Assembly: GCA_003166955.1 (NCBI GenBank)
Contig: PMUI01000086.1
Span: forward strand, 1-64,000
DNA length: 64,000 bases
Reading direction: 5' to 3'
From: Acidobacterium sp.
GTDB lineage: Bacteria > Acidobacteriota > Terriglobia > Terriglobales > Acidobacteriaceae
Under the pieces are notes generated by a model. The model was given only the letters and a program-made list of their open reading frames with translations. It ran no database searches and had not been told where the DNA came from. A program made the position numbers and the translations under genes. The stretch's first letter is position 1. Each line of letters begins with the position of its first letter. Below, piece by piece: positions 463 through 32,504 of the stretch.

Positions 463-1106
463 AGAAACAAAAAGGCCGCCATCGAGGCGGCCTTTTCACT
501 TGCGGTTTGTTGCCAGGAAGGAGGAAAAGGCGAACTGCGGCGTTGTGTCGCCTTTCTATTCCCTACTCCCTGCTGGCTATTCCCTGCCGCAAAGGGGCCT
601 GTCGCAAGTGATGGCTTTCCAATCACCTGACTCAAATAGGCTCAAGGCGGGACGTTGCAACTCCCGCCGAATCAATCAAGGAGTCAAAAGGTTGACGTAT
701 TTTGAGAAAAGCCGGGGGTGGGACAAAAGGCGAACCCGCGGCGTTGTGTCGCTTTTCTGTTCCCTACTGCCTACTGGCTACTCCCTGCCTTTGAGGGGCT
801 CGTCGCAAGTGATGGCTTTCCAATCACCCGACTCAAATGGGCTCAAGGCGGCAAGTTGCAACTCCCGCCAAATCAATCAAGGAGTCAAAAGGTTGACGCA
901 CTTTGGGAAGAGCCAGGGTGGACAAAGGGCGAACCGCGGCGTTGTGTCGCTCTTCTGTTCCCTACTGCCTACTGCTATTCCCTGCCGCTAAGGGGCCTGC
1001 CGCAACTGATTTCTTATCTGTCATTGCAGTCAAAAGGGCCCGAAGGCATGAGCCTTAAGCACCTGAAGAATCAATCAGGTAGTCAAAAGGCTGACCTGGG
1101 AGGAGG
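463..1106 (+). repeat. Left array of structured repeats (three units)
   Basis: Three head-to-tail units of roughly 190 bp start near 520, 720 and 915. Each carries, in order, a stem AAAGGCGA/TCGCCTTT enclosing a GCGGCG loop, a spacer of the CCCTACTGCCTACTGG type, the hairpin GTGATGGCTTTCCAATCAC, a GGCGGG/CCCGCC hairpin with GTTGCAAC in its loop, and the hairpin GTCAAAAGGTTGAC. The third unit is degenerate after about 1000 but keeps a GTCAAAAGG-type end. The same units occur inverted at 32000-32504. Small open frames inside the array are not coding. The element could be transcribed as structured RNA or be a REP-like DNA element; the sequence alone does not decide. Confidence 0.85.
469..496. 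terminator. GC-rich hairpin with A/T flanks
   Basis: AAAAGGCCGCC and GGCGGCCTTTT are complementary around a 4-5 nt loop, giving an 11-bp stem with A and T tracts on both sides, as expected for a bidirectional intrinsic terminator. It caps the outer end of the left array. The same hairpin caps the outer end of the right array at 32477-32504, so it appears to be a fixed part of the composite element. Confidence 0.7.
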
Positions 1107-1116
1107 GGTACTCGCG

Positions 1117-1377
1117 CTAAATCTTCACCGGGTAATTCGGATCGCCGGGAGTTATCGGGTTGTTTTCGGCGGCGACTGCGGCTTCCGCGGCCTGGAAACC
1201 CATCTTCGAATGCGTGCCGTCGCAGAAGGGCTTGTTGGTTGAGGCGCCGCAGCGGCACAGCGAAAACGCGGGCTTGCCGGTGAGGTCCCACTCCTTGCCT
1301 TCGGCGTCGACCAGCGTCACCACACCTTCCACGCGATAAGGACCATTGGGACGCACCGTAATCTTCACATCAGCCAT
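1117..1377 (-). CDS. CDGSH iron-sulfur domain protein
   Basis: This 86-residue protein carries the CDGSH-type 2Fe-2S motif: CRCG at about residues 41-44, then PFCDGTH at about 50-56, giving the three-Cys/one-His ligand set of the family. The N-terminal half (about 1-38) is a beta-rich segment typical of short bacterial CDGSH proteins. These proteins bind a redox-active, labile 2Fe-2S cluster; their role in bacteria is not settled. It is the gene nearest the left repeat array and its stop codon lies about 10 bp from the array edge, so its transcripts probably run into the array. No partner gene suggests a substrate. Confidence 0.9.
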   Translation of the reverse strand: MADVKITVRPNGPYRVEGVVTLVDAEGKEWDLTGKPAFSLCRCGASTNKPFCDGTHSKMGFQAAEAAVAAENNPITPGDPNYPVKI

Positions 1378-1446
1378 GCGGAATACTCCTGGAGAATCGA
1401 AATCAAGCTGCCCGTCCAGTCTAATCGCAGCGGACGGACGCCGCGC

Positions 1447-2658
1447 CTAACCCAGCGAAGCGGCGGCAACTGGCGCGGGCACGACCGACTCCTGCTCCGC
1501 GTGCACGGTTCTCCTGGCAACGAGGAACCACACGAGCCACGCGGGCGCGGGCCACAGGAAGAGCTTCGAATTGAGCCCGACGGAGAAGATATAAGGCTGC
1601 AACTGCAGCGCGACCATCAGCAACGCAAGCACGCCGACCAGATTCCGCGACCGCGTGCGGCTGGCGCCGTAGAGAAGCGCCGGAATCGCCAGAGCATGAT
1701 CCCACATCCAGGCATACGGCGCTGCCAGAAGCGAAACCAGCATCACGACGCTGCCGTGGTCGAGCCAGTCCCAGGAGTGGCGGCGCGGCCAGAAGTAGAT
1801 TGGCGCCCAGACGCAGGCCACGAGGGCGGGCACGAAAGCGAGCCAGTGTTTCGCGGGGTCGATGGCGTTGCGCAGCATGACGCTGAGGCAGGGGATGAAT
1901 TCGTTGGCGATGCCGGAGTTGCCGGCCCAGTGCATGTACTGCGCAAAGGCGGCGGGATCGATGAGTGCGGTGAGCGCGCAGCTTGCGAGGATGGCCGCCG
2001 CGGCGCCGTAGAGGATGCGCCAGCTGCGGGTGACCACGATCCACGCCAGCAGCACCACGGCGAAGGGCAGGAACAGATGCGGCTTGAGCGTGCAGAGCCA
2101 AAGCGCGGCGCCGGCCCAGAAAGGGTTGGTGCGATGCAGGCGCAGGAAGAGGACCAGGCCCAGGAGCAGGAAGATCGCCGTCTGGCCGGAGATGACGCAG
2201 ATGAGCGCGGGCGGAAAGCAGTAGCCGAGCCACTCGATGTGGTTCGCGGGTTTGCCCAGGGTTTTCCAAAGAAGGCGCACGGAGTAGAGCAGCAGGGCCA
2301 GGATCAGCAGCGACCAGGGCAGCGCCGCGGCTCGCGCGCTGGCCAGGCCCAGAGGCAGGGCGAGCGGGAGGGCCCACGGAGGGTTGCGCATGAAGTAGAC
2401 GCCCTTGCCGTCGAAGCCCGCGCCGTGCTCGATGCGGCTCATCGCGGTGGGGTCGTAGGGATTGCCGTGATGGACGAGCTGCTGGCCGGTGGCCCAGTAG
2501 ACGACGAAGTCGCGCGAGACGGCCAGATGGTGGATGAGCGGCAGGACGGCGAGGAACAAAGCGGTGAGGGCCAGGCCCAAGGCAAACGCCAGCGCCGTCG
2601 CCATCCCGGCGAAGTCGAGGCGGTCGTTGTTCCTGGGGAGCCGGGGGCTTTGGGCCAT
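1447..2658 (-). CDS. GT87-family membrane glycosyltransferase (DUF2029)
   Basis: This 403-residue multi-pass membrane protein has about ten hydrophobic segments. Near the N-terminus are YWATGQQL and GNPYDP, then MRNPPWALPLALPLG, GYCFPPALICVI and TLKPHLF, the pattern of the DUF2029/GT87 family. Known GT87 members are polyprenyl-phosphate-dependent mannosyl- or arabinosyltransferases of envelope glycans; the sugar here is unknown. The neighbour at 2776-3999 is a clear paralogue on the same strand with all these blocks in the same order, so the pair looks like a tandem duplication. The start at 2658 precedes the first membrane segment but has no strong ribosome site. Confidence 0.85.
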   Translation of the reverse strand: MAQSPRLPRNNDRLDFAGMATALAFALGLALTALFLAVLPLIHHLAVSRDFVVYWATGQQLVHHGNPYDPTAMSRIEHGAGFDGKGVYFMRNPPWALPLALPLGLASARAAALPWSLLILALLLYSVRLLWKTLGKPANHIEWLGYCFPPALICVISGQTAIFLLLGLVLFLRLHRTNPFWAGAALWLCTLKPHLFLPFAVVLLAWIVVTRSWRILYGAAAAILASCALTALIDPAAFAQYMHWAGNSGIANEFIPCLSVMLRNAIDPAKHWLAFVPALVACVWAPIYFWPRRHSWDWLDHGSVVMLVSLLAAPYAWMWDHALAIPALLYGASRTRSRNLVGVLALLMVALQLQPYIFSVGLNSKLFLWPAPAWLVWFLVARRTVHAEQESVVPAPVAAASLG

Positions 2659-2775
2659 CAGGTCAATTTTTGCCGCCCACTCACGAACGCCACAATACCC
2701 CTTTCGATACCCAACGATTCCCCTGGGGCGGGCGAGGGCGGAATCGGGAACTCGGCACTGCGAGAGCGTTTGTGG

Positions 2776-3999
2776 TTAGAGCGCCGCCCCGGCCACAACC
2801 GGGTACTGAGCTGTCGCGCCGGAGCGAATGGAGCCGCGGGCCACCAGGAACCACAGGAGCCAGACCGGCGCCGTCCACAAATAGAGAGCCGTCTCGGGCG
2901 CGGGAGCGAAGAGGGGCTGAATCTCAACGACGAGGTAAAGAAGTCCGAGCACCGCAAGCAGCGTGCGCGACTGCGTTCGGCAAGCCGCGAACAGCAGCGC
3001 GGGGATCGCCAGGGACTGGTCGTAGAACCAGCAGTAGGGCGCGACGAGGATCGACACCAGCATCACCAGCGAGCCGTGTTCCATCCAGTCCCAGTGCTCG
3101 TGATGGCGGCGGAAATAGTCGAACACCCAAATTGATCCGACTGCGCAGGGCACGAAGGCGAGCCACTTGATGTTCGGGTTGATGAGATTGCGCAGCGCTA
3201 CGCCGAGGCAGGGAAGGAACTCGTTCGAGATGCCGGAAGTGTGGGCCCAGTGGGCGTACTGGCTCCAGGCAGAGGGGTCGATCAGCGTAGTGACAGCGCA
3301 ACTGAACGCGAGGGCGGCGACGGTTCCGAGCACGATGCGATATTGGCGCTTGACTACGATCCACAGCAGCAGCGCAATGCCAAAGGGCACAAACAGATGA
3401 GGCTTCAGCGTGCAAAACCAGAGCCCAGCGCCGGCCCAGAACGGCCGCGTCCGATGCAGGCGCAGAAACAAAACCAGCCCGAGGAGGAGGAACAGGGAAG
3501 TCTGGCCCATGATGACGCAGATCAGCGCGGGCGGAAAGCAGTAGCCAAGCCAGTCCAGATGCGAGCCATGCTGTTGCGACCCGGGCTGGCCGAACATCTT
3601 CCAGAGAATGCGCACGCAGAGGATCAGCAACGCGAGCATCAGCAGCGACCACGGCAGCGCCGCCACGCTAGCGGAGAAGAATCCCAGCGGCAACGCGAGC
3701 GGCAGGCCCCAGGGCGGGTTCCGCATGTAATTGACCAGCGAGGCCTGGCCGGCGAAGCCGGCGCTGTGCTCCAGCTGCCGCATTTGATCCGGATCGTAGG
3801 GATTAGCGTGGTGCGCTAATTGCTGGCCGGTCGCCCAGTAAATCACGTAGTCGCGCGCGCCCGCCAGATGGCGGCTGACGGGCAGCAATGCAAGGAAAAG
3901 CAAGGTGGTCGCGATGCCGAGCGCGCAGGCAATGGCGATAACGAAGTCCGCAAGATCGGACTTCTTCTTCGCGCCGGACACAGTGCTGCCTTCCGCCAT
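2776..3999 (-). CDS. GT87-family membrane glycosyltransferase (DUF2029), paralogue
   Basis: This 407-residue polytopic protein is paralogous to its downstream neighbour, sharing YWATGQQL, ANPYDP, MRNPPWGLPLALPLG, GYCFPPALICVI and TLKPHLF. It is probably a polyprenyl-phosphate-dependent hexosyl- or pentosyltransferase acting on the outer face of the inner membrane. The ATG at 3999 is preferred over an in-frame TTG 60 bp upstream because the extra residues are low-complexity and polar, although neither start has a clear ribosome site. It lies 117 bp upstream of its paralogue, so the two may be co-transcribed. Confidence 0.85.
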   Translation of the reverse strand: MAEGSTVSGAKKKSDLADFVIAIACALGIATTLLFLALLPVSRHLAGARDYVIYWATGQQLAHHANPYDPDQMRQLEHSAGFAGQASLVNYMRNPPWGLPLALPLGFFSASVAALPWSLLMLALLILCVRILWKMFGQPGSQQHGSHLDWLGYCFPPALICVIMGQTSLFLLLGLVLFLRLHRTRPFWAGAGLWFCTLKPHLFVPFGIALLLWIVVKRQYRIVLGTVAALAFSCAVTTLIDPSAWSQYAHWAHTSGISNEFLPCLGVALRNLINPNIKWLAFVPCAVGSIWVFDYFRRHHEHWDWMEHGSLVMLVSILVAPYCWFYDQSLAIPALLFAACRTQSRTLLAVLGLLYLVVEIQPLFAPAPETALYLWTAPVWLLWFLVARGSIRSGATAQYPVVAGAAL

Positions 4000-4109
4000 T
4001 GCGCCAATTTTACTGTTCGGCGTCGGTCGTGCAGATTCCCCGTTTTGGGGATCGCACAACTCGCCAGGGGATCAGATGTGATCTAAGTTTTGAAAACTGC
4101 GCCGGGCGT

Positions 4110-4343
4110 TCAGCACTTTTTGCACTTGGCCATGATGGCCTTGTGCAGCCGCTCCCGCAGATCCTCCGGCAGCTCGTAGAGCTCGTGGCTGCGGTAGATC
4201 TGGATGGTCGTTCGCGTCGTACTCAGCGTGACCTCGCAATGGTCGCACTCGCGAAGATGTTCCTGAAGGTCGGCGCGCAGGGGAATCGCCGCGTCCTGAT
4301 CGAGCATGTCATCGAGCTGGGCCAAAAACTCCGTGCACGTCAC
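4110..4343 (-). CDS. Putative zinc-finger anti-sigma factor
   Basis: This 77-residue protein contains HLRECDHC at about residues 29-36, the H-x3-C-x2-C zinc motif of ZAS/zf-HC2 anti-sigma domains, with the helical flanks expected for that fold. It ends in CKKC, an extra thiol pair that could make it redox-responsive; that is inference. Its start overlaps the stop of the ECF sigma gene by 4 bp, the usual arrangement for a sigma factor and its cognate inhibitor. There is no membrane segment, so it is probably a soluble anti-sigma factor. Confidence 0.85.
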   Translation of the reverse strand: MTCTEFLAQLDDMLDQDAAIPLRADLQEHLRECDHCEVTLSTTRTTIQIYRSHELYELPEDLRERLHKAIMAKCKKC

Positions 4344-4978
4344 TTCTCACCACCCTGGGCCTGACCATTGCGCCGCTTAAAGTAGCGGCTCAGCCGTTCC
4401 CGCAGCTGCAGGCGCGCCCGCAGCAGCCGCGATTTAACCGCCGGGATGCTGAGTCCCAGCGTCTCTGCCGTTTCCTCCGTCGACAGCCCCTCGACGTCGC
4501 GGAGCACAAACACTACACGGAAGCCCGGCGGCAATCCCTGAATCGTGCGGCGCAGAATATCGGCCATCTCCGACTGCCCGTATAGTGCCTCCGGATCAGG
4601 GCTCCAGTCCGCCAGATCGCGCGGCATCGAGCCTTCCTCAGTCTCGACGTCCTCGTCGATCGAAACCATCCTGCCCGTGCGCCGTTTGCGCAGCCGCATC
4701 AGCGATTCGTTGACCGCGATGCGCACCAGCCAGGTATAAAACTTCGAGTTGCCCTGGAACTGGTCGAGCTTCTGGTACGCCTTCAGGAACGCGTCCTGCA
4801 CTACATCCTCGGCGTCTTCACGGTTCTGGACGATATGCTGGGCGATGCGAAATACCTGGCGGTCGTACTGCTTCACCAGCTTCTCGTACGCCGCCATATC
4901 GCCCCGCCGCGCCCGCTCAACGAGCAGAACGTCGGGATGAACTTCGGCAGCTCCCTGTGGTTGGATGGAAGAGGACAT
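4340..4978 (-). CDS. ECF-type RNA polymerase sigma factor (RpoE-like)
   Basis: The protein is 212 residues from the chosen ATG. Region 2 runs about residues 25-95 and includes DAEDVVQDAFLKAYQ and YTWLVRIAVN. A linker follows, then region 4 at about 140-195 with GLSTEETAETLGLS and AVKSRLLRAR, the helix-turn-helix for the -35 element. The frame stays open upstream, but that part would overlap the divergent gene at 5043 and is not sigma-like, so 4978 is used. It is co-transcribed with the zinc-finger anti-sigma factor through a 4-bp overlap, and diverges from a CuA-type lipoprotein that could be in its regulon. Confidence 0.9.
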   Translation of the reverse strand: MSSSIQPQGAAEVHPDVLLVERARRGDMAAYEKLVKQYDRQVFRIAQHIVQNREDAEDVVQDAFLKAYQKLDQFQGNSKFYTWLVRIAVNESLMRLRKRRTGRMVSIDEDVETEEGSMPRDLADWSPDPEALYGQSEMADILRRTIQGLPPGFRVVFVLRDVEGLSTEETAETLGLSIPAVKSRLLRARLQLRERLSRYFKRRNGQAQGGEK

Positions 4979-5042
4979 GAATGGCTTCAGAATTTGGACA
5001 GCAGCAGACAACGTGGCCTTCCTCCATACTAAACGGCTTGCC

Positions 5043-5462
5043 ATGAACACATCAAAACCGACCGGATCGAAAGCATCCCGATCAATGGCGATACCGGCCC
5101 TTCTGCTGGCGCTGGGGCTCATTCTTTCGATGACCAGCTGCGGCAAAAGGACTCCGACTTACGCCGGCCCTCCGGATACCGTCCGCCAGATTGTGATGAA
5201 GAAGTGGGAGATCGATCCTGCGCTTGTGGAGGTGCCGCAGGGCGCTCGCGTGGAGCTGGTGGTGACCTCGATGGATGTTGAGCACGGCATCGCGGTTCCG
5301 GGTCTGGGCATTCGCGAGCCGGTTCAGCCTGAGCATCCCGCTGTGATTCGCTTGCTTGCGCAGACGCCTGGCGTTTATCCGATGCGGTGCAGCGTGCTTT
5401 GCGGACGGGGGCACGACAAAATGACGGGGGCGATTGTGATTACTGCGCGGTCAACTCCATGA
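5043..5462 (+). CDS. CuA-type cupredoxin lipoprotein (COX2-like)
   Basis: This 139-residue protein begins with a basic N-terminus, a hydrophobic segment (about 15-30) and a lipobox-like LSMTSC with Cys33. The rest is a short cupredoxin domain resembling the CuA domain of cytochrome oxidase subunit II. Visible ligands are His81 in VEHG and, in MRCSVLCGRGHDKM, Cys116, Cys120, His124 and Met127. The Glu normally found between the two Cys is Val118 here. There is no second membrane helix and no oxidase gene nearby, so it is probably a free-standing, lipid-anchored periplasmic copper or electron-transfer protein. It diverges from the ECF sigma gene with a 64-bp gap. Confidence 0.8.
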   Translation: MNTSKPTGSKASRSMAIPALLLALGLILSMTSCGKRTPTYAGPPDTVRQIVMKKWEIDPALVEVPQGARVELVVTSMDVEHGIAVPGLGIREPVQPEHPAVIRLLAQTPGVYPMRCSVLCGRGHDKMTGAIVITARSTP

Positions 5463-5526
5463 TCGCGGGTCACCAATCTCTGATCACTCGTGGCGCAGTG
5501 CTCGGATTGGATCGACACACGCCGCT

Positions 5527-6850
5527 CTACGAGCCGGAAACCAACTTGCAGCGAGAGCTACGGGGATTAACAGCGCGCTCGCGAGCGCGAACGTCGCCGG
5601 GTCCCACGACTTCAGCCCATACAGCTAAAAGGAGGTTGGCCAGGTTCGCGCACGCCAGCAGCAGTACCAGCCCGGCCAGGCTCATCAGAACATAGACAGG
5701 CTTCGCGAGATCATCGACGGCCGGATTCTGTCCCCTGCTTCCATCCTGCAATACCAGTCTCGGTAGCTGTCTATCACTCTTCACCGGCATGGTTGCGCGC
5801 ACCGCGGCGCTCATCGAAACATTGAGCGACGCGGCCGCAGTCGCATCCGGAACTCCCGGCTTGGCGCGCCCCATGACCAGAACCCACCACAACGCCTTGT
5901 TCGTAAGCAGCGACGGCGACGGGGAAGAATCGATATTCTGCGGCGCCACAATCGGCTGCATGCTGAAGGGCAGAAAAACATCCGCTTTGCCCTGTGCCGA
6001 ATAGGCCCCCGTAAAACCCGGCGGATTCACTCCCAGCACTGTCATGGGCGTCGCGTTGACCAGGATGGTTTTTCCAATCACATCCGAGCGGCCAAAGCGA
6101 TTCGTCCACAGCTTGTCGCTGATCACGACCACCGGCCCGCTGCCCACCGCGCCATCATCCGAATCCTGAATGCCGCGCCCCAGCTGCGGTTTTATCCCCA
6201 GCGTCGAGTAGTAATTGCCGGAGACCATCTCCGAGTCCGCGGCCTCGGCCTCGCCGCGAATCGTCAGCGTCATCCGTCCGTACAGCTTGAACGCAAACAC
6301 GTCCGCCAGCGACCGGTTCTCGCGCCGCATCTGCTCGTACACCGGATACGAAAACGACGTGGACGTCTCCCCTTGATGCGATTTCGTCCCAGTAGCCCCA
6401 CATCTCGGTGACCACGCCATCCTTTGGTTCGGTCCACCAGAACATGCGCAGCTGCTCAGGATGCGGCACGTTGAGCCGGTCGAGCAGCATGTGCTGTGCC
6501 GCCGTGAAGATCACGGTGTTCGCGCCGATCCCGAGCGCCAGAGAGCCGATGGCGATCGCTGTGAATCCGGGACTTTTGGCCAGCATGCGCATGGCGTGGC
6601 GCAAATCGCCGCGAAGCTCGTCGAAGCGCCGGGTGCCCCAGGCTTGGCGCGAGTTTTCCCGCACCGCCGCCAGGCTTCCCAGCGCCACCCAGACCCGGCG
6701 CAGGGCCTCTTGGCGCGGCATGCCGGTTCGCGTCAGATCGTCGGCGTAGCTCTCGATGTGAAACTCGAGATCTTCGCTCACCTGACGATCCAGATCCTCG
6801 CGGCGGAACACCGCCCTGAACCGCGTTGCAATCCGGCTGCGTAGTCTCAT
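5527..6850 (-). pseudogene. Frameshifted and truncated MacB/FtsX-type ABC permease
   Basis: The first frame (6850 to about 6390) encodes the N-terminal helix region common in acidobacterial duplicated permeases (FRREDLDRQVSEDLEFHIE), the segment RHAMRMLAKSPGFTAIAIGS and the first transmembrane helix. The reading then shifts by one frame between about 6400 and 6365; the second frame resumes at TSTSFSYPVYEQMRREN and continues through the MacB periplasmic domain to LLLACANLANLLLA at about 5630. After that the sequence is unlike the family, and the expected second half (another FtsX-type unit) is missing. Intact relatives are about 800 residues; about 400 remain. It overlaps the padR stop by 4 bp, so it was originally a regulator-permease operon. 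Confidence 0.85.
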
Positions 6851-7194
6851 AGCTCCTCCGGAAGGGTGTTGAGAATGCCTCCGACCACTTCAGCGAACTG
6901 GTTCCACTTCTTCGCCTCGGCTTCCAGGCGGCGGCGGCCGGCGGTGGTGAGGCGGTAGAAACGCGCGCGGCGCTTGTTCTCGCTCTGTCCCCACTCGCCG
7001 GCGATCCAGCCCTCGTGTTCCAGGCGGTAGAGCGCGGGATAGAGCGAGCCTTGCTGGATTTCGAGGCGGTTCCGGGAGATTTGCTGGATCCGCAGGAGCA
7101 CGCCGTAGCCGTGGAGGGGCCCGAGCGAGACGGCCTTCAGGACGAGCATGTCGAGGGTGCCCTGCAACAGATCGATGGCTGGATCGCCGCTCAT
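6847..7194 (-). CDS. PadR-family transcriptional regulator
   Basis: This 115-residue protein has the PadR winged helix: GTLDMLVLKAV, LHGYGVLLRIQQ and GSLYPALYRLEHEGWI at about residues 12-65, then YRLTTAGRRRLE and a short C-terminal dimerisation helix. It is a typical partner of acidobacterial ABC permeases and overlaps the permease remnant by 4 bp. Just upstream are two copies of the palindrome TCTCC-N11-GGAGA, one covering the ribosome-site region, which suggests autoregulation. The regulator looks intact although its permease is broken, so it may now serve only itself or act on unlinked targets. Confidence 0.92.
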   Translation of the reverse strand: MSGDPAIDLLQGTLDMLVLKAVSLGPLHGYGVLLRIQQISRNRLEIQQGSLYPALYRLEHEGWIAGEWGQSENKRRARFYRLTTAGRRRLEAEAKKWNQFAEVVGGILNTLPEEL

Positions 7195-7201
7195 CTTCCT
7201 C

Positions 7202-7254
7202 TCTCCTAGTTTGTCAGGGAGAGTAGCTGGGCTTCTCCCAGACTGTCAAGGAGA
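7202..7254 (-). promoter_or_regulatory. Two-site palindromic operator and promoter of padR
   Basis: TCTCC-N11-GGAGA occurs at 7202-7222 and 7234-7254. The 11-bp cores are also alike (TGACA read on the minus strand), and the centres are 32 bp apart, about three helical turns. The upstream copy contains a perfect -35 TTGACA (minus strand, 7249 to 7244), and TACTCT about 18 bp later is a weak -10. The downstream copy overlaps the AGGAGAGAGG ribosome-binding region of padR. Binding of two PadR dimers would block both transcription and translation start. Confidence 0.65.
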
Positions 7255-7414
7255 GTGGGCGGGAATTTCTCGTTTTGTGACGAGCAGGGTCCGGGGTCCC
7301 TCGCGCCGGGTCGGGGGCTGCCCGTGCACAAAGAAGCAACATTTTTGGTGCTCTGTGGTTTTCCTCTCTGAAAGCCCTTCCGTTTCGTCTTACTCTGATA
7401 GCAGAGAGGCGTAG

Positions 7415-23593: not shown

Positions 23594-23640
23594 GTTTCTC
23601 CGGATGGCCCGCTTCACGAGTCACGAAGTGGAGGACTCCG

Positions 23641-24267: not shown

Positions 24268-24273
24268 CTCAGG

Positions 24274-24474: not shown

Positions 24475-24533
24475 AGGTGAGCCTCCCAAGTCTCCTGGTG
24501 AAAATCTCGATGCGTTTTCTGTCCTCCGCGTAT

Positions 24534-26444
24534 CTACGGTCGCGTCCCCAACTCGCTGTTCGCCACGCCCACGGCCAGCGGCGTGACCACCGGCGTGGCC
24601 GCACCCACAAACTCGGTGAGGGTTTGATTATTGAAGCTGGTCGTCCAAACATTACCGGACCCGTCAATAACGATGGTCGTGGGATCCTCCAGTCCTGCCT
24701 CGTAACCAGTCGAGGGGGTAATCGCGTTGCCGCTCGAACTGAGCTCGCTGATGCAGTTGGAGTTTTGGTTTGCGGCCCAGACGTTGCCGGAGCCGTCGAT
24801 GGCGACACTATCGGGTGCCCACAGTCCCCCAACCTGGTAGGCTCCGTAGCCATTTGCGCCGGAGATGATCGTCCCCGAGGAATTGAACACCGTGAAGCTG
24901 TTGCCCTCGATGTTCACGACCCAGACATTACCGGAGTGGTCGACGGCGACGCCGAGGGGGTCGGCTAACCCGCCGCCCGTGTAGGGGCTGGAGCCGGAGG
25001 CCGTGCCTGCGGAATTGAACTCGCTGACGCTGTTGACTTTGCCTGAGTTCGCGACCCAGACATTCCCGGAAACATCGACGGCAATGCCATAAGGATTGCT
25101 CAGGCCGCCGCCCGTATCGCCGGTGCCGTCGGGCGAAAGGAACGTGCTCGTCGAGGGATCGTACTCGGCGATGCTGGCGTTGCCGGAGTCCGCAGTCCAG
25201 ACATTCCCGGAGGCGTCGATAGCGATGTGAACAGGGGAACTGAGCCCGCCGCCGGTAATCCCGGAGCCGGAAAGCGGGTTCCCCGAGGAGTCAAACTCGC
25301 TGATGCTGTTGCCGCCGGCGTTCGTGACCCACACGTTCCCCGTGGCGTCGATGGCAATGCCATAGGGACTGCTCAGCCCGCCGCCTGTATAGCCGCCGGA
25401 GCCGGAAAGGGCCGCACCGGAAGAGCTGAACTCGCTGATGGTGCTGTCGTTCTCGTTCGCGGCCCAGACATTGCCGGAGTCGTCAATGGCGATGCCATCG
25501 CTTTGACCCAGCCCGCCGCCGGTGTAGGTGACGGCGATGGTCCAGTCATTCGGCGCGCCGCTCAGGCTTGGCTGAAAGGGCGCGGTCGACGTCGACAAGC
25601 CGAAGAGCGAGCCCACATTGGCGCCGGGGTTGTGCGCGATGTTGATGGCCGCGGTCGCTGTGTCGGTCGGTGCGGTGGCGCCATTTTTGGCATTGCTGAA
25701 GAGCGTGGTGCAGCCGGACGAGCCTGGGCCGCTGGAGTTGATGCAGGCGGCGAGAATATCGGCCAAAGTGTCGATCTCGCTTTGCGGCACGGTCCCGTTA
25801 CCTGCGGGCGTGGTCGTAAGGGCCAGGCCGGTACCGAGGTTCGCCAGATTGAACGCGCTCAGCGCCGCATTGGCCATGCCCGTCGCGGCCAGCGCGGTAT
25901 TTGAACCGGCCATATCTGCCGCATCGGTGGCGAAGCCGGCCAGAGCGTAGGCCGCCGCGACGGTCGTCACTTCATTCATCTGGATGGAAGACGGCAGTCC
26001 GGTGAAGGCGTTTCCGGAACACTGGCCCAGCACGGCCATCAGGCCGGCTGCGGAGTTCGGGCCAAAGCCCGCGGTGCCGCCGACCGAATAGAGATAGACC
26101 TGCTGCGCCGTGGGGGAACCACACGAGTACTCGTCTGACGTGATCGTGAATCCGCCCGTCGAGTTGGTCGTTACAAAACTCCGGTTGCTCCCATCCGTGT
26201 TGCCGGTACCGGTCAGCAGCGAAGCCGACTGCGGTCCGTTTCCCGCCGCCAAGGCAAACAGGTAGACGCTGGCTCCCTGGATGGGCTGCTGTCCCCCGTG
26301 GACCTTGCCCCTGATCGGTGCGCTCTTCAGGGCTGTGGGGCTCGGAGCGGGATTGGACACCGGCTCATGCGTTGCGATCCGCGCGACGGAGCAGCCGGTA
26401 AGGAGAATAGCGGAACTGGCGAGCAGCTTCCACGCGTGGGGCAT
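24534..26444 (-). CDS. Lipoprotein with seven-bladed NHL-type beta-propeller
   Basis: This 636-residue protein starts at the ATG at 26444 (GGAG 8 bp upstream) with a lipobox ILLTGCSV at about residue 19. Residues about 45-75 ([20 protein letters not shown]) form a small Ig/carboxypeptidase-regulatory-like strand set. A Thr/Ala/Asn-rich middle (about 130-290) follows. The C-terminal half holds seven repeats of about 44 residues with the pattern GGGLSxPYGIAIDxSGNVWVxNxxxNSISEF, which fits a closed seven-bladed propeller of NHL/Vgb type. It is probably surface- or periplasm-exposed. Ligand unknown; such propellers bind proteins or glycans or act as lactonases, but no catalytic residues can be assigned. 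Confidence 0.85.
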
Positions 26445-26630
26445 GAGAAGGTCTCCGTTCACTGCCTGAATGAGGGGAGGACTTAGGGGCCGAACGACGT
26501 GCACTTAGGGGCAAAAAGCCGGCAGAGCTCAGGGGCCAGGAGGAGGAGACTTCTGGATGCCGGAGCGAGCAGAGGATGGCATGCAGCGTAGCATGGCTGG
26601 CTTGAATCCGGCAATTGGAAATCGCAGCAG

Positions 26631-27128
26631 CTAGTTGTTTTCGAAGGGAATGTCGGCGTTGCGCAGCCCCAGCTTTGCGCCAATCGAGTACCCGACCATC
26701 GCCACCGCCGGCCACGTCGCGATGAATCGCCCCTGACCGTCCAGCAGTCCGCTGTCCGCGTTCAGGCTGAGGAACGTGAGCCATAGCTTGTCCGTCGCGC
26801 CGCAGTGGTAGCAGGCCAGGGGTCCGGTCGGCATGTCGAGCACGTGCAGGCCCCAGAGCATCCACCAGATCAGGCCCAGCATCCACGGCAGCGTCGCGCT
26901 CTCGGTAGGGCGCAGCTTGGTGAAGCCCACGCCCGCGATCAGGGGCACGATGAAGGACACCACCAGCGTCGCGAGCGGCGGCACGTATGAGGGATGAAAC
27001 AGGCCGATCGCTCCCAGCGAGAGCGCCCAGACCACCAGGCAGAGCACCAGGTGGAACAGAAACCACATCGCCTGGTACAGCACCCGGGTTTCATGAGGCC
27101 CCAGCGTCTCAACTGGTCGCGAATTCAT
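26631..27128 (-). CDS. Small polytopic membrane protein, unknown
   Basis: This 165-residue protein has about four hydrophobic helices (about 18-45, 50-72, 83-100 and 138-158). A loop of about residues 105-120 contains CYHCG, a CxxC pair that could bind metal or form a disulfide. I do not recognise the family. It is divergent from the DapA-like gene on the right and 187 bp from the NHL lipoprotein gene on the left. The gap to that gene holds a short direct repeat (CTTAGGGGC twice) but no other gene. Confidence 0.65.
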   Translation of the reverse strand: MNSRPVETLGPHETRVLYQAMWFLFHLVLCLVVWALSLGAIGLFHPSYVPPLATLVVSFIVPLIAGVGFTKLRPTESATLPWMLGLIWWMLWGLHVLDMPTGPLACYHCGATDKLWLTFLSLNADSGLLDGQGRFIATWPAVAMVGYSIGAKLGLRNADIPFENN

Positions 27129-27227
27129 CTCGATCTTCCGTTTCGCACCTAATCCTCAGACTATCGCGCAATCGCGTGCGCCGCGCGTTTTTCCCGCTCT
27201 TCTTCGGTAACTCATTACAATCGTTCT

Positions 27228-28319
27228 ATGCTTCTCGATGGTGTCTTTCCGGCGATCACTACTCCGTTCTACCCCGACGGGCGTCTCTATTTGAAGAAGC
27301 TTGAGCACAACGTCGAGCGCTACTCCCGCACGCCCTGCGCGGGAATGGTCATCCTCGGCTCCACCGGCGAAGCCATCATGCTTGGCGACGAAGAATCGCG
27401 CGATGTCCTTCGCCACGCCGCCTCCGCCGCCGCTCCCGATAAGGTTCTGCTCGCCGGCGTTGGCCGCGAAAGCCTCACCGAGACCCTCCGCCTCGCCGAG
27501 TACGCCGCCGAGCGCCAGTACGACGCGGTCCTCGTCCGCACCCCGCACTACTACGCGCCCTACTACGGACTCACCAACAGCGCCGGCGGCCTGACGAGCA
27601 ACGCCAGCGGTATGCTCACCTATTACCGCGCGCTCGCCGACCGCTCCCCGCTCCCCGTCGTGCTTTACAGCATCCCGAAATTCACGCACTGCGAGTTGCC
27701 CCTCGAGCTCGTCGCCGAGTTGGCGCAGCACCCGAACATCATCGCCATCAAAGATTCCTCGGGCAGCCTCGAACGCCTTGCCGCTCTGGTCGCCGCCACG
27801 CGCTCGGCGCCCAAACGCACCGTGCTCGTCACGCCGGTGTTTACGGCTTTCACCAGCCGCATGATGATCGCCGAATCCGAGGCCGCCATGATGCCGGGCT
27901 TTTTCTCCGCCGACCTGCTTGCGGGCACCACGCCGCTAGCCGCTTTGGAGCCAGTCATGAAAACTACCCGCAAGAAGGAAGTGGGCTTCCAGGTTCTCAC
28001 CGGCTCGGCCGACAACCTGCTCCCTGCGCTCGAGGCTGGCGTTAACGGAGCCGTGCTTGCCTTTGCTGCGCCCGCACCGCAGGCCTGCCAGGAGATCTAC
28101 ACCGCCTGGAAAGAGAACGACCCCGTCGTCGCCCGCGAAAAGCAGCAGCGCCTCGTCGACAGCTCCCGCATCGTTACCGGCAAGTACGGAGTTCCCGGGC
28201 TCAAGCACGCCTGCGACCTCAACGGCTACTATGGCGGCGTGCCGCGCATCCCGCTTCTGCCGCTCACGGTCGATCAGAGAGTCGAGGTCGCCGCCGCCAT
28301 GTCCGACCTCCGCAACTGA
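27228..28319 (+). CDS. DapA/NAL-family class I aldolase (dihydrodipicolinate synthase-like)
   Basis: This 363-residue (beta/alpha)8 lyase has GVFPAITTPF at the start, the pyruvate-binding loop ILGSTGEAIML at about 42-52, catalytic Tyr147 in VVLYSIP and Schiff-base Lys175 in IIAIKDSSG. Classical DapA is about 295 residues; this protein has an extra segment of about 16 residues (GLTNSAGGLTSNASGM, about 114-129) before the Tyr and a longer C-terminal part, so a substrate other than aspartate semialdehyde is possible. It lacks neighbours of the lysine pathway. The next gene is a STAS protein after a short repeat. Confidence 0.85.
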   Translation: MLLDGVFPAITTPFYPDGRLYLKKLEHNVERYSRTPCAGMVILGSTGEAIMLGDEESRDVLRHAASAAAPDKVLLAGVGRESLTETLRLAEYAAERQYDAVLVRTPHYYAPYYGLTNSAGGLTSNASGMLTYYRALADRSPLPVVLYSIPKFTHCELPLELVAELAQHPNIIAIKDSSGSLERLAALVAATRSAPKRTVLVTPVFTAFTSRMMIAESEAAMMPGFFSADLLAGTTPLAALEPVMKTTRKKEVGFQVLTGSADNLLPALEAGVNGAVLAFAAPAPQACQEIYTAWKENDPVVAREKQQRLVDSSRIVTGKYGVPGLKHACDLNGYYGGVPRIPLLPLTVDQRVEVAAAMSDLRN

Positions 28320-28326
28320 GCGAACT

Positions 28327-28370
28327 GCCTCCTGGCTCCAGGCTCCAAGCTCCAGGCTCCTGCCTGCCGT
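28327..28370 (+). repeat. CTGGCTCCAGG-type tandem repeat
   Basis: Degenerate 7-14 bp units (CTGGCTCCAGGCTCCAAGCTCC) fill the short gap after the aldolase gene. The same repeat type is expanded at 31603-31690 and appears in reverse orientation near 47119-47160. Confidence 0.65.
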
Positions 28371-28433
28371 TATGCGATAATCGCTCGACTTCCGCTGCTA
28401 ACGGCTCAACACGCACCGACGAGGGCCTTCCCG

Positions 28434-28790
28434 ATGTCTCACCCCGCAGCGCCAACGCCTGTCCTGACGATCGAGGTTGAGCGCTGCCCCGACAGCGTCG
28501 CCATCGTGCGCTGCCACGGCAAGCTGGTTGCGGGGGCGACCGAGGTCCTCTCCAACGGCGTTCGCCCGCTCATTCCGGATTGCCGGCGGATCGTCCTCGA
28601 CCTGTCCGACCTGCAACACACCGACAGCACGGGGCTTGGCGCTCTGGTTCGCCTGTACGTCGCGGGCAAATCGGCAGGGTGCAGCTTAGAACTCACCCAT
28701 CTGAGCCAGCAGATTCGCAACCTGCTTGGGCTCACCCATCTTCTGGATGTGTTCACGATCATCGGCGAAAGAGGCGTCAAGCTGATGTGA
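28434..28790 (+). CDS. STAS-domain anti-sigma factor antagonist
   Basis: This 118-residue protein is a single SpoIIAA-like STAS domain. Visible parts are VAIVRCHGKLVAG (strand and turn), VLDLSDLQHTDSTGLGALVRLYV with the conserved phosphorylatable Ser in DSTGLG, and a C-terminal helix LLGLTHLLDVFTI. In the known systems the unphosphorylated form releases a sigma or response protein from an RsbW-type kinase. No kinase or phosphatase gene is adjacent, so its partner is elsewhere. It may be co-transcribed with the aldolase gene 115 bp upstream, although a repeat lies between them. Confidence 0.9.
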   Translation: MSHPAAPTPVLTIEVERCPDSVAIVRCHGKLVAGATEVLSNGVRPLIPDCRRIVLDLSDLQHTDSTGLGALVRLYVAGKSAGCSLELTHLSQQIRNLLGLTHLLDVFTIIGERGVKLM

Positions 28791-29153
28791 TCTGCACTCG
28801 TCACCTCTGGGCTCCGCTGCCGTAGCGAAGGAACACATAGCGCCCTCGTCACCTTGACAATGCTTCCTCCGAAGCGAAGTATAAGTGAGCCCCTCCAGGA
28901 GCAGCACTCTTCAGCATCCCCTCATCGACTCCTGCTGAGCACAGGCCCCAGGTTCCCCCATCCACGAAATGTAAGCAGCGCCGGGCCCGCAGTTCCCGCA
29001 CCGCTCTGACTCACACCATCTCCGCAGCCACCGCGCACGGAACTTCGCGGGCGCCCACATTCCTGGTTTGGGGATGATGGGTTCACAACGCGCTCGCGCG
29101 CGTCCGTTAGCCGCGCTCGCGGAGAGGCAAAGCCCCAGGGAGGGCACCTCACT
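28791..29153. other. Intergenic, no gene recognised
   Basis: Short frames only. A TTGACA at about 28855 with AAGTAT 17 bp downstream is a possible promoter for the secreted protein at 29154. A stretch near 29085-29122 is rich in CGCTCGCG-type inverted repeats, similar to the CGCGCTCGCGAGCGCG palindrome at 5574-5589. Confidence 0.5.
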
Positions 29154-29981
29154 ATGAATCACCGCACGCTCGTTTCACTCGCACTCTCCAGCCTCTTCGT
29201 CGCATCGGCCGTCGCCGCCGCCGCGCAGGACACCACTCCGCCGCCCCCGCCCAAGGTCCTCGTTATTCAGCGCGAGTACCTCAAGCCTGGCAAGGCCGGC
29301 GCCATCCACGTCAAATCGGAAGCCAACTTTATCAAGGCCGTCAACGACGCCAAATGGCCCACGCACTACATCGCCATGGACTCCCTGTCCGGCCCCACCC
29401 GCGCCCTCTACATGTTTGCCTATGATTCGTTCGACGCCTTCGGTAAGGCTCAGGAGGCGCAGGCCGCTAACGCCAAATTATCCGCTGCCATCGATGCCGC
29501 ATCCCTGGCTGACGGCGAATTGCTGACCCGCTACGACGGCCAGGTCTTTGTCTACCACCCGGAGATGAGCCTCCATGCCAGCGTCGACGTTTCTCACCAG
29601 CGCTACTGGGAGTTCACCCTTTTCACCATCAAAGTGGGCCGCGAGAAGGAGTGGAATGAGCTCGTCAAGATCTATATTGACGGCTTCAAGGACGTGCCCG
29701 ACGCTCACTGGGCGGTCTACGACAGTAACTACGGCGAGAACAATGGTGGCGAATGGGCCGTGATCACCCCCATGCGCTCGCTCGCCGAAGTCGACAAGGG
29801 CTTCGACAACGGTAAAGCCTTCTTCGATCGGCTTGGCGACCTCGGCGGCCAGCACGTCGCTGAGCTCGCGGCCCACTGCATCGAGTCCAGCCAGAAGAAC
29901 CTCTTCGTCGTGAATGCGAAGGAGAGCTACGTCGACGCCAGCTGGTCCACCACGGCTCCGGAAATCTACGGCCAGCACTGA
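29154..29981 (+). CDS. Secreted protein, possible dimeric alpha/beta-barrel type
   Basis: This 275-residue protein has a signal peptide (about 1-24) followed by a Pro-rich stretch. The mature part has two similar halves, each with a strand such as VLVIQREYLKPGKAG or YWEFTLFTIKVGREKEWNEL followed by helices, as in NIPSNAP/antibiotic-monooxygenase-like ferredoxin folds; this is judged from the pattern only. No catalytic residue can be named. A second protein of similar design follows at 30172, suggesting a small secreted operon, although a hairpin repeat lies between. GGGAGGG precedes the start by about 9 bp. Confidence 0.7.
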   Translation: MNHRTLVSLALSSLFVASAVAAAAQDTTPPPPPKVLVIQREYLKPGKAGAIHVKSEANFIKAVNDAKWPTHYIAMDSLSGPTRALYMFAYDSFDAFGKAQEAQAANAKLSAAIDAASLADGELLTRYDGQVFVYHPEMSLHASVDVSHQRYWEFTLFTIKVGREKEWNELVKIYIDGFKDVPDAHWAVYDSNYGENNGGEWAVITPMRSLAEVDKGFDNGKAFFDRLGDLGGQHVAELAAHCIESSQKNLFVVNAKESYVDASWSTTAPEIYGQH

Positions 29982-30010
29982 GCAGGTTCAGCAGGTTGGT
30001 GGACACCGTA

Positions 30011-30060
30011 ACCCTGAGCGACCCCCTGGAGTGAGCGCAGCGAGCTCCAGGGGAGTCAAA
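30011..30060 (+). repeat. Intergenic hairpin repeat (ACCCTGAGCGA type)
   Basis: CCCCTGGAG (30023-30031) pairs with CTCCAGGGG (30045-30053), flanked by ACCCTGAGCGA and AGTCAAACGACC. This resembles widespread intergenic repeats in acidobacterial genomes in which CTGAGCGA and GTCGAA-type ends flank a variable hairpin. It lies between the two secreted-protein genes and could weaken read-through. Confidence 0.65.
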
Positions 30061-30171
30061 CGACCTCTGGAGGCCCATCCCCAGGCCCTCCGCCGGTTTT
30101 TTCAATCTCGGACCGCGCCCGGAGCCTTCAATCCGGGCGTGATCGCCCCCTACCCACGAAAGAGAGACTCT

Positions 30172-30975
30172 ATGCAACGCACTCGCTTCTTCCTTGCGGC
30201 AGCCGCCGCGCTCGCCTTCTCCACCACACTATTCGCACAGACCTCGTCCCCCGGCTACCACTCCGTGACCTGCTACAAGCTGAAACCGGACAGCTCCGCC
30301 GCCTTCAACAAGTTTGAGTCCGAAGAAGTTCACAAGATCGCCCAGGCACGCGTCGACGCCGGCGAACTCACAGGCTGGTTTTTGCTGCGCGCCGCGTTGC
30401 CTTTGGGCGAATCGGTCGACTGCGACTTCCTCATCGTCTCTCTCTATCCCAAAACGCCGCATCAATTCGCCGGAGAGGCGCTCGCCAACGCAGTGCGTAA
30501 GTCGGGCCTGAACATCACTCCGGACGACTACGTCCGCCATCGCGAGGCCGTTCTCAAAATCATGTCGGTCGCCGTCTTCCAGAACGAGGCCGCGGTCGGC
30601 ACACCGAAAAAAGGGGACTTCTTCCAGGTCAACTACATGAAGGTGGCCGACGCCAACTTCAATGACTGGATCGCCTACGAGAAGAAAGTCTGGCAACCGA
30701 TCGCCGAGTCGCTGGTGAAAGACGGCAAGGAGGACGCCTGGTCCCTGAACGTCCAGGTCATGCCCTTTGGATCCGATCTGCCGTACCAGGCTGTCACCGT
30801 CGACGTTTTCCCCAATGAAGACGCCGTCTGGGCCCAGGACACACAGTTCATCGATCGCTTCCATAAAGTGCATCCGGACATGGAGGCCGGCACCACCATG
30901 GAGCACTTCGAGAAGCTCAGAACCCGAGGCCTGGTGAATTTGTACTCCCTCGACGACATCGTGGGTGCCCCCTAA
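30172..30975 (+). CDS. Secreted protein of unknown function
   Basis: This 267-residue protein has a signal peptide (about 1-23, ending LFAQ). Two halves again show a strand-helix pattern: YHSVTCYKLKPDSSAAFNKF and FFQVNYMKVADANFNDWIAY both look like the first strand and helix of a ferredoxin-like domain, so an internal duplication similar to the gene upstream is likely. Sequence similarity between the two proteins is low by eye. The frame is open far upstream, but the ATG at 30172 begins the signal peptide. No metal or catalytic site is evident. Confidence 0.7.
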   Translation: MQRTRFFLAAAAALAFSTTLFAQTSSPGYHSVTCYKLKPDSSAAFNKFESEEVHKIAQARVDAGELTGWFLLRAALPLGESVDCDFLIVSLYPKTPHQFAGEALANAVRKSGLNITPDDYVRHREAVLKIMSVAVFQNEAAVGTPKKGDFFQVNYMKVADANFNDWIAYEKKVWQPIAESLVKDGKEDAWSLNVQVMPFGSDLPYQAVTVDVFPNEDAVWAQDTQFIDRFHKVHPDMEAGTTMEHFEKLRTRGLVNLYSLDDIVGAP

Positions 30976-31275
30976 ACCCTTTCTACAAGGAGCAGCGGTC
31001 CCGACCGGTCCTCCTTATATGCCACCGCGGCGATATTTCGCGGCAACAAAAAAGATGTGAGCGAGCATGAGCGATATTGAACAGCCTGGCTGCTGGGCTG
31101 TCCTTACACTCATGCTTGTACTTCCTCTCTGGTCCGCCGTCCATTGCTGAGCGGCGGCCATCTTTTGGTCCGTTTCCCTCGGGGCCGATGAGCTATATTG
31201 CACAGAAAAAGTTGCAGGGCTACAGGTAGACTCTCCAACAAAGGCTTCCCATTTGGGAAACGAAGGGAGCGCACG

Positions 31276-31515
31276 ATGGCCCACCTTTCAAGACCAGGTT
31301 TTCCCCACAGACTTAACCCAGACGGCAGCTACGATTCAATTTGCACCGTGTGTCTCGCGACGGTGGCCACAGTTCGAAAGGAAGAGCAGCTGTATCCCAG
31401 CGAACTGGCACACCTCTGCGATCCACTCCGTCTCTATCAAGTCAGCCAGGGCTCGACCGCCCTTGCGGTCCGCACAAAATGGGCCGCCTCCTCCTGCTCA
31501 TTGGATCCTGATTAG
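31276..31515 (+). CDS. Small conserved Cys-containing protein
   Basis: This 79-residue protein starts at an ATG with AAGGGAG about 6 bp upstream. The core reads PGFPHRLNPDGSYDSICTVCLATVAT, followed by ELAHLCDP. The CxxC plus the later HxC set could bind one metal ion. The pattern of FPHR-NPDG-DSICxxC is one I have seen in small hypothetical proteins of acidobacteria, so I treat it as a real family of unknown function. It has no signal peptide. It is preceded by about 300 bp with no other credible gene. Confidence 0.65.
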   Translation: MAHLSRPGFPHRLNPDGSYDSICTVCLATVATVRKEEQLYPSELAHLCDPLRLYQVSQGSTALAVRTKWAASSCSLDPD

Positions 31516-31602
31516 CTGGGAACTCCGGCGCACAGCCGGGCGCCCATCCTTTCCAGTCGCGTTTTTCCCGAGAGAGGGTGAGACTGCAATCTCCACCACC
31601 TG

Positions 31603-31690
31603 CTGGCTCCCGGCTCTCAGTTCCTGGCTCCCAGCTCCTGGCTCCCGGCTCTCAGTTCCTGGCTCCCAGCTCCTGGCTCCCGGCTCCCGG
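31603..31690 (+). repeat. 35-bp perfect tandem repeat of CTGGCTCCC type
   Basis: A 35-bp unit (31603-31637) is repeated exactly at 31638-31672 and followed by a partial third copy to 31690. The unit itself is built of CTGGCTCCC, CGGCTCTCAGTTC and CTGGCTCCCAGCTC sub-blocks. There are no unique spacers, so it is not a CRISPR array. Confidence 0.85.
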
Positions 31691-31750
31691 AGGTAACCTC
31701 GCTTCCGCTCTCCAAGGTTTCGCCGTCTAACTCTCTTTGGGGATTCCGAA

Positions 31751-31996
31751 GTGTTTTCTGACGAGCCTAGTCTTTCCCGAGTCATGATCTACACCACAGG
31801 GCAGCAAGTCCGCGTCATGCACAGCGGAGCCGTCGGCCGAGTCTTCCTCAAGCTCCCCCTCCGCGACGTCTACCTCGTCCAGTTCCCAGGCTTTCCCGTC
31901 GTCGAGAAGATCTACAACGGCTGCGACCTCGAACCCGCTACGGGCGTCGAGAACCTCCCTCAGCAGCCCGCCGAGATCCACCACCCCGGCGCCTGA
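31751..31996 (+). CDS. Small protein, unknown, probably SH3-like
   Basis: This 81-residue protein starts at GTG with GGGGA about 7 bp upstream; an ATG 11 codons later is an alternative. The core GQQVRVMHSGAVGRVFLKLPLRDVYLVQFPGFPVVEKI has the alternating pattern of a small beta-barrel (SH3/KOW-like). Third codon positions are almost all G or C, which supports coding. Its stop lies only a few bases from the right structured-repeat array. I do not recognise the family. Confidence 0.6.
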   Translation: MFSDEPSLSRVMIYTTGQQVRVMHSGAVGRVFLKLPLRDVYLVQFPGFPVVEKIYNGCDLEPATGVENLPQQPAEIHHPGA

Positions 31997-31999
31997 ACG

Positions 32000-32504
32000 G
32001 CAGGGAGTAGGCAGTGGGCAGTAGGGAATAGAAAAGCGACACAACGCCGCGGGTTCGCTTTTTCTCCGCCCCTGGCTTTGCTCAAAGTACGTCAACCTTT
32101 TGACTCCTTGATTGATTTGGCGTGGCTTACTGTTTCCTGCCTTGAGCCCATTTGAGTCCGGTGATTGGAAGGACATCACTTGCGACAGGCCCCTCAAAGG
32201 CAGGGAGTAGGCAGTAGGCTATAGGGAATAGAAAGGCGACACAACGCCCCGCGGGTTCGCCTTTTCTCCACCCTGGCTCTTTTCAAAGTTCGTCAACCTT
32301 TTGACCCCTTGATTGATTTGGCGGGAGTTGCAACTTCCCGCTTTGAGCCCATTTGAGTCAGGTGATTGGAAAGCCATCACTTGCGACGGACCCCTCAAAG
32401 GCAGGGAGTAGGCAGTAGGGAATAGACACACGCCGCAGTTCGCCTTTTCCTCCTTCCTGGCAACAAACTGCAAGTGAAAAGGCCGCCTTGATGGCGGCCT
32501 TTTT
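32000..32504 (-). repeat. Right array of structured repeats, inverted copy
   Basis: Read on the minus strand, this holds the same units as 463-1106: the capping hairpin, the GGCGA/TCGCC stem, the CCCTACTGCC spacer, GTGATGG/CCAATCAC, the GGCGGGA/TCCCGCC hairpin and GTCAAAAGGTTGAC. The stem arms read AAAAGCGA/TCGCTTTT at 32032-32062 and AAAGGCGA/TCGCCTTT at 32232-32264, so the pairing is kept although the bases differ. In the unit near 32100 the GGCGGG hairpin has decayed. The array points toward the left one, about 31 kb away. Confidence 0.85.
32477..32504. terminator. GC-rich hairpin capping the right array
   Basis: AAAAGGCCGCC and GGCGGCCTTTT pair around TTGAT. This is the same hairpin as at 469-496, with a changed loop and an unchanged stem. 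With A and T tracts on both sides it can act as a terminator in either direction. Confidence 0.7.

Follow-up and report, generated by a model that had tools for sequence, protein, structure and literature searches.

Two inverted arrays in the window

The window, a 64,000-nucleotide stretch of an Acidobacterium sp. contig (PMUI01000086.1, positions 1 to 64,000, forward strand), carries two arrays of an element of ∼113 nt, here termed A. Five A elements are present at a distance of ∼200 bp from each other, three on the plus strand and two on the minus strand. The first array opens with a conserved promoter-like region (342–462, +; 91.1 bits with model R2, of which this copy is part) that includes TGGTATTCT at 440–448 (+), followed by a terminator-like leader hairpin, AAAAGGCCGCC-ATCGA-GGCGGCCTTTT (470–496, +; z of −2.89 for the RNA fold of 440–510). 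Three plus-strand units follow, each with a linker stem and an A element: the stem at 526–555 with A at 589–701 (107.2 bits with model R1), the stem at 726–756, containing one G-U pair, with A at 790–902 (111.7 bits), and the stem at 925–954, containing an A-U to G-C change and a G-U pair, with a diverged A at 987–1100 (92.7 bits). The stop codon of a convergent CDGSH-type gene (1117–1377, −) lies 16 bases beyond the third A element.

The second array reads on the minus strand from its own conserved promoter-like region (32512–32619; 67.5 bits with R2, this copy also being part of the model) and terminator-like leader hairpin (32477–32503). It continues through a linker segment whose stem has lost the 3′ arm (32415–32448), an A element (32287–32399; 109.6 bits with R1), a linker segment with the stem (32230–32265), a second A element (32086–32198; 110.9 bits) and a linker segment whose stem carries a G-C to A-U change (32029–32063). 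A convergent 81-aa open frame (31751–31996, +), which gave no Pfam or NCBIfam match, has its stop at the end of this array. Neighbour directions taken from the longest frame misnamed both neighbours in the window and were discarded. Model R1, built from own-genome copies with the window copies among them, recovers the 3 + 2 A elements, and the arrays are 86% identical in a BLAST match over 543 query bases. The two arrays of ∼190-bp units described in the first-pass annotation are thus confirmed, in mutually inverted orientation and with units of ∼200 bp.

The linker stem is found where that annotation placed its first, compensated stem (AAAGGCGA/TCGCCTTT, AAGGGCGA/TCGCTCTT and AAAAGCGA/TCGCTTTT). 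In the six copies with both arms (five in the window and one at contig C140; the sixth window copy at 32415–32448, −, which has lost its 3′ arm, was excluded), all 48 of the 48 pair cells hold standard pairs. One pair shows a single A-U to G-C double change and another occurs as GU in three copies, GC in two and AU in one. The observed number of paired cells and the covariation score were reached in 49/500 shuffles, the counts of doubly changed pairs and cells in 77/500 and the pair types in 318/500. Since shuffles reproduce these values, the signal of the stem does not exceed chance; the stem and one compensated double change exist, and the inference of selection on pairing drawn from them is not confirmed. 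The description of four hairpins in the same order in every unit was also too strong, because the GGCGGGA/TCCCGCC hairpin is missing from some units: when the five A elements are folded singly, those at 589, 790 and 32287 form it at minimum energy, and it is absent from those at 987 and 32086.

Conservation and structure of the A element

With model R1, 24 A copies were found at 15 loci of the own genome, 8 of which hold tandem copies, and two divergent copies in one of 11 other genomes of the genus. Restriction to the copies first seen, which had been named as evidence against an undescribed RNA family, therefore applies in part. In an alignment of 23 copies, 31 of 118 columns are invariant, mean column identity is 74%, and invariant blocks, with conserved boxes that include UCAAAUGGGCC, AUCAAUCA and GUCAAAAGG, alternate with varying stretches. 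The A element is constrained at the nucleotide level. It apparently does not encode a peptide. Frame +1 seems open and yields an appealing peptide, which made a protein-coding repeat attractive, and this candidate was rejected on account of stops in 7 of 23 copies, lengths other than the usual 113 in four of 23, and a pN/pS of 0.73, within the range of shuffled columns (0.90 ± 0.16, 60 shuffles).

The cells of the outer helix of A comprise 98 Watson-Crick, 37 G-U and two A-C pairs and one other. Covariation among own-genome copies is at chance level, its score being reached by 162/500 shuffles. When the two divergent copies are added, pair 22/37 is GC in 23 copies and AU in two, and the score is reached by 27/500; three of the measures are then reached in 27–35/500 shuffles and two in 90 and 258/500. 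A lack of covariation beyond chance, the second observation that the first-pass annotation would have held against its proposal, is thus seen in the own-genome copies and somewhat relieved by the divergent ones. Folded singly, one of the five window copies has a z below −2 and the other four are not unusually stable.

No Rfam family (4227 families) reached its gathering score in the window or at 20 related loci, and a further search gave sub-threshold hits only, supporting the view that the layout matches no named RNA family. Acido-1 (RF01686) and Acido-Lenti-1 (RF01687) are described as candidate noncoding RNAs of Acidobacteria (PMC2864571); they resemble the present cassettes in this respect, but neither model reaches its gathering score here. 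The exact A motif was absent from viral contigs, and one match in a Balneolaceae contig, from a genome-contig collection that may lack the own genome, covers 25 model positions only and was taken as chance. With two mismatches allowed, 100 genomes of the family gave 22 matches in the own genome and one in each of two others, the latter likewise taken as chance (reversed control, one).

A shared promoter-like region with differing contents

The promoter-like region is a conserved stretch of ∼120 bp in which TGNTATNCT is invariant in 58 aligned copies; these were collected by a pattern including the TGGTAT stretch with up to four mismatches, which favours conservation of that stretch. It is present in all 12 genus genomes, 11 by BLAST and the twelfth (G105) by R2, and BLAST gives 29 matches to it in the own genome, partly fragments, and 39 in one genus genome. 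The region lies upstream of 10 of the 15 A loci and in each of these shares its strand with A; the other five have a fragment only or no full region (L005, L007, L010, L035, fragment only, and L052, at a contig edge). It also stands before genes for CxxH proteins and before arrays of 21 bp.

Cassettes are ordered alike: the promoter-like region, a GC-rich, T-tailed hairpin that usually starts 15–55 bases further on, and then the payload. The terminator-like hairpin, previously described as a cap, sits at the promoter end, just behind the likely transcription start, instead of closing the array. It was found in 65 of 91 leaders, compared with a mean of 0.45 and at most one in 20 rounds of two-base-block shuffles; the other 26 lack it under the criteria applied. 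Its inner arms occur in 34 different forms with pairing kept. Pairing preserved through sequence change, which the first-pass annotation saw in its first stem, goes well beyond shuffles in the leader hairpin and in no other part tested. The GC-rich stem, the T run and this maintained pairing fit an intrinsic terminator, termination itself being predicted. A hairpin just behind the promoter could also stop transcription altogether and leave the payload untranscribed, or it could serve transcription from the opposite side.

Contents differ between species. At six places with A in genome G000, the downstream flank is 70–83% identical between species and the payloads are without similarity; at place L018/L113, a CxxH gene in one species faces an A element in the other. 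A payload is present in both species at the matched places, which were located through promoter loci, so that empty sites could not show. CxxH frames were found at 11 of 105 promoter loci examined. One CxxH gene pair has a pN of 0.040 and a pS of 0.188 over 160 codons, and two more distant pairs have pN/pS values of 0.33/0.50 and 0.24/0.32. At 11 own-genome loci without a CxxH frame, the 21-bp arrays show a lag-21 match of 0.38–0.44 against 0.26–0.31 at other lags. The arrays of the window belong to a genus-wide family of intergenic cassettes united by one promoter type and a stop-like hairpin, whose contents vary with the species.

In other genera, similar promoters are followed by a possible two-site relative. 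Sites of the CTAAGTSATTGAAAA type were found at 48 places, 11 being second sites and six having no good second site at +72; the remaining 31, selected on spacing, give a second site 72 bases on from 31 of 37 first sites. With up to three mismatches, the motif occurs in 32 of 399 genomes, compared with one of 399 for the reversed control. Of 18 loci inspected, L286 alone, which lies inside the family, has the G-run end in the stretch displayed; a class-wide spread was therefore dropped, and no claim is made past the family. Two mutually exclusive helices were considered for this element, since 2 of 31 copies pair at all 18 positions. The scores are reached by 110 and 259 of 500 shuffles, neither helix clearly exceeding them, and the doubly changed cells of the first helix in 23/500. 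Perfectly pairing copies can also arise from template switching in quasi-palindromes.

Proposed attenuated cassettes and alternative readings

The preferred reading, with a probability of roughly 0.45, takes each array to be the payload carried by a putatively transcribed, mostly noncoding, attenuated intergenic cassette with exchangeable payloads. The early leader hairpin would attenuate transcription, and payload RNA would be made only upon permitted read-through. Within the transcript, A elements may serve as repeated binding modules, each offering the outer helix and the conserved boxes, and could titrate or attract a partner molecule, either protein or RNA. Payloads would be swapped among the dispersed copies through recombination between common promoter and leader sequences. 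Sponge or decoy RNAs of the CsrB type have repeated binding modules, and the presumed cassette transcript likewise has tandem modules; the cassettes differ in their many dispersed loci and in having no known partner, and the likeness would be one of working only.

Somewhat unlikely is a reading at the DNA level, in which the repeated words (GTGAT/ATCAC, TCAAA and, in possible relatives, CTAAGTSATTGAAAA) serve as operators, placed directly or inverted beside a promoter, and the hairpins are by-products of inverted sites. The 72-base spacing, with an inverted similar site lying (by eye) between the two, fits such protein-binding arrays, as do the helices of the other-genera element, which do not clearly beat shuffles, and the 21-bp period, which corresponds to two DNA helical turns. 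The constant strand of A relative to the promoter-like region (10/10) and the G-U bias of its helix argue for the transcribed cassette instead.

It is unlikely that the arrays are functionless remains, namely degenerate members of a CxxH gene family and of minisatellites, homogenised within the genome by gene conversion. CxxH genes do follow the same promoter-like region and leader, a CxxH gene and an A element face each other at L018/L113, linkers between A elements are of low complexity, and the linker stem of array 1 persists in array 2 with one arm lost. Invariant blocks next to varying stretches in 23 A copies argue against decay, as do the promoter-like region and leader hairpin maintained also in cassettes without a CxxH frame.

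Dispersed intergenic repeats with palindromes are familiar from bacteria, ERIC being another of the BOX, RUP and REP/REPIN kind. The cassettes share the dispersed palindromic copies with these and add a common promoter-like region, a leader hairpin, a same-strand order and places of payload exchange. REP/REPIN sequences associated with RAYT are described as alternating in orientation between neighbouring copies (BIME; PMC2817692) and as bearing a GTAG or CGTC tag at one palindrome end (PMC3733652). Mobility as a non-autonomous element, be it a REP/REPIN, a MITE or an integron-like cassette, would account for the many dispersed, often tandem copies (8/15 loci) in a genome with three Y1 transposase (Y1_Tnp) genes, but is highly improbable: no A or promoter match lies in the 9.4 kb around those genes, terminal or flanking inverted repeats are absent (array 2 has only an internal 12-nt overlapping palindrome and array 1 none), downstream flanks are common to different species, and the window copies are direct repeats, not alternating. 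The REP-type identity that the first-pass annotation had weighed against itself is not supported by these comparisons.

A wider form of the attenuated-cassette reading is doubtful. Many attenuated promoters would occupy fixed chromosomal places throughout the genus, and the module behind each, whether A arrays, 21-bp arrays or CxxH zinc-finger genes, would be exchanged and homogenised per species, making an undescribed noncoding gene family whose transcription control is conserved and whose content turns over, with CxxH proteins as possible array partners. If true, a single promoter type together with an early terminator would control a multi-copy noncoding gene family whose contents change faster than their places, and the cassettes would allow a direct test of the means by which regulatory repeat families stay uniform inside a bacterial genome. 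The cassette setting itself supplies the CxxH proteins as candidate partners. One of these, encoded behind the promoter-like region at L119, resembles the zf-C3Hc3H and WRC zinc fingers (PF13891 and PF08879) at scores below the curated cut-offs (22.9 vs 27 and 19.3 vs 28.6 bits).

Two inverted arrays and their conserved core

The window holds an inverted pair of repeat arrays with units of ~200 bp, array 1 at 463–1100 on the forward strand and array 2 at about 31998–32503 on the reverse strand. They are 86% identical across 543 query bases (BLAST), and the two arrays of repeated units described by the first-pass annotation are indeed present. From promoter to end, each array runs through a promoter-like region, a hairpin with a T run, a linker, an A element, a linker, the next A element and so on, the A element being the conserved unit core of ~113 nt. 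In these two arrays the far end lies against a convergent open frame at its stop codon, namely a CDGSH protein (stop at 1117) beside array 1 and an 81-aa frame (stop at 31996) beside array 2. The linker at 565–600, 765–800 and 32200–32225 is of low complexity, with words like CTATTCCCTACTGCCTACTGG, and more copies occur elsewhere in the genome.

A model built from 23 own-genome A copies (R1) found five A elements in the window and 24 at 15 loci of the genome; 17 of the 24 are in tandem, at 8 loci, with a spacing of 174–201 bp. Beyond this genome just two divergent copies (32–35 bits) were found, both in G101, one of the 11 other genus genomes; the other ten gave no copy reaching E 0.001. In the alignment of 23 copies (the 24th, partly masked, was left out), 31 of 118 columns are invariant and mean column identity is 74%, with invariant blocks next to varying ones. 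No coding signs were seen in the own-genome copies. The outer helix contains 37 G-U against 2 A-C, as would be predicted for an RNA transcribed from the strand of the promoter. Overall covariation is nevertheless at chance level in the own-genome copies; with the two G101 copies added, it is modest (27–35 of 500 shuffles by three measures, 90 and 258 of 500 by the other two).

The stem for which compensation had been claimed is located in the linker, outside the A element. It is kept in 6 of the 7 copies examined (five in the window and one on contig C140), and all 48 pair cells of these six form pairs, with one double change and one further pair occurring as GU, GC and AU. However, this signal was matched by 49, 77 or (pair types) 318 of 500 shuffles and is not beyond chance. 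The seventh copy (32415–32448) has lost one arm. Outside the window, the 27-nt linker stretch was found on C140 only, in a search of the loci collected that allowed up to 6 substitutions and no gaps.

Rfam gave zero matches for the window and 20 related loci, in agreement with the earlier view that no named RNA family has this layout. No description of such an element was found in the open-access literature searched, and the retrieved passages of candidate papers name none. A match to a REP-type element is not supported; Y1 transposases are encoded in the genome, but none beside the element.

The promoter-like region and the leader hairpin

The region before the arrays spans ~120 bp; BLAST matched it 29 times in the own genome, with fragments among the matches. 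It is present by BLAST in 11 of 12 genus genomes (39 matches in G100, 26 in G106, 20 in G101 and 15 in G103), and the twelfth, G105, has 6 matches to a model of the region (R2). The stretch TGNTATNCT, which we take from the familiar consensus to be an extended −10, is invariant across 58 aligned copies, themselves picked from 76 found by a pattern that contained this stretch. With at most 18 candidates scored per genome, R2 matched in 23 of 200 family genomes: all 8 genus members drawn and, more weakly, 15 others, including g70, another genus (14, 7 and 5 matches in its genomes), and G096 (8).

A hairpin with a T run follows the region in 65 of 91 leaders, against an average of 0.45 for shuffled leaders, and has 34 different inner arms. 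It is the sole structure here in which pairing is clearly kept while the letters change. The cassettes, each comprising promoter-like region, leader hairpin and payload, would be transcribed, and their transcription may be subject to attenuation. At L006/L058 (contig C39 of the own genome) the leader-hairpin loop contains, as though inserted, a stretch that itself carries a long inverted repeat; at L008 (C38, also own genome) two A elements are flanked by two leader-hairpin copies, followed by a 21-bp-array stretch.

Cassette payloads and their differences between species

As read from sequence, the promoter-like region and the leader hairpin of the cassettes are conserved, the arrays are strand-consistent, and there is constraint at nucleotide level. 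The full promoter region lies upstream of 10 of the 15 A loci, on the same strand as A in 10/10; the other five lack a full one. Among 105 promoter loci inspected by script after 8 duplicates were dropped, 11 carry a CxxH frame, 11 own-genome loci without such a frame are periodic at 21 nt (lag-21 match at least 0.38), and the remainder contain A or other contents. The CxxH frames behave as genes; pN is 0.040 and pS 0.188 for a close pair. Binding partners of the payload may be envisaged.

Small CxxH proteins share the promoter region at L113, L123, L146, L147, L159, L177, L078, L112, L116 and L119, the last with weak similarity to zf-C3Hc3H/WRC domains. Arrays of 21-bp units like CTCGGCCGAGTTTGCATCAAA stand behind it at own-genome L057, L059, L060, L063, L067, L069–L072 and L080, and more weakly at L079; they often have an open frame after a ribosome-site-like stretch, and by eye the frame varies among genomes. 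Another repeat type, with words like GGAATCAAATTC, follows the promoter region or A element at L026, L047 and L065 of the own genome.

Loci of two species were paired by their downstream flanks, most sequence stretches holding little upstream DNA; payloads were compared for a subset of pairs, the six A places and three others. At five places carrying A in the own genome (L007, which lacks the promoter region, L018, L047, L064 and L068), flanks are 70–83% identical; in the other species the place is taken by an array (of the 21-bp type or different in another way), a CxxH gene or some other element, with no payload similarity by BLAST at E 0.001. The sixth is array 2 of the window, whose convergent frame is 78% identical across 208 bases to G106 sequence at L187; there the promoter is followed by an additional stretch and a different array, and no payload similarity was found. 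21-bp arrays present in both species align at 68% (L070/L121) and 70–74% (L072/L185); the L081/L174 pair, without A, gave no payload alignment. Judged by these comparisons, payloads differ where flanks agree, and they may be exchanged by recombination.

Candidate relatives outside the genus

In g70 and a few others, the weaker promoters are followed by an element that has two copies of CTAAGTSATTGAAAA and ends in a G run. An extended first-site motif (up to 2 mismatches) occurs 34 times in G128, 23 in G070, 5 in G150 and 2 in G167; its reversed control had zero matches. The loci collected contain 48 places with the motif; 11 are second sites, and among the 37 that remain, 31 are followed by a second site at a distance of 72 bases. 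These 31 elements were aligned without gaps, and covariation in their helices was not clearly above shuffles. The hints of homology to A come only from place, order and some words. G-run ends like CCCAGGGGGGAGGGGGG are also seen on cassettes at G100 loci such as L137, L144, L151 and L154, and at L225–L233 of other genera; they could form a quadruplex or, from the opposite side, provide a C-rich stretch.
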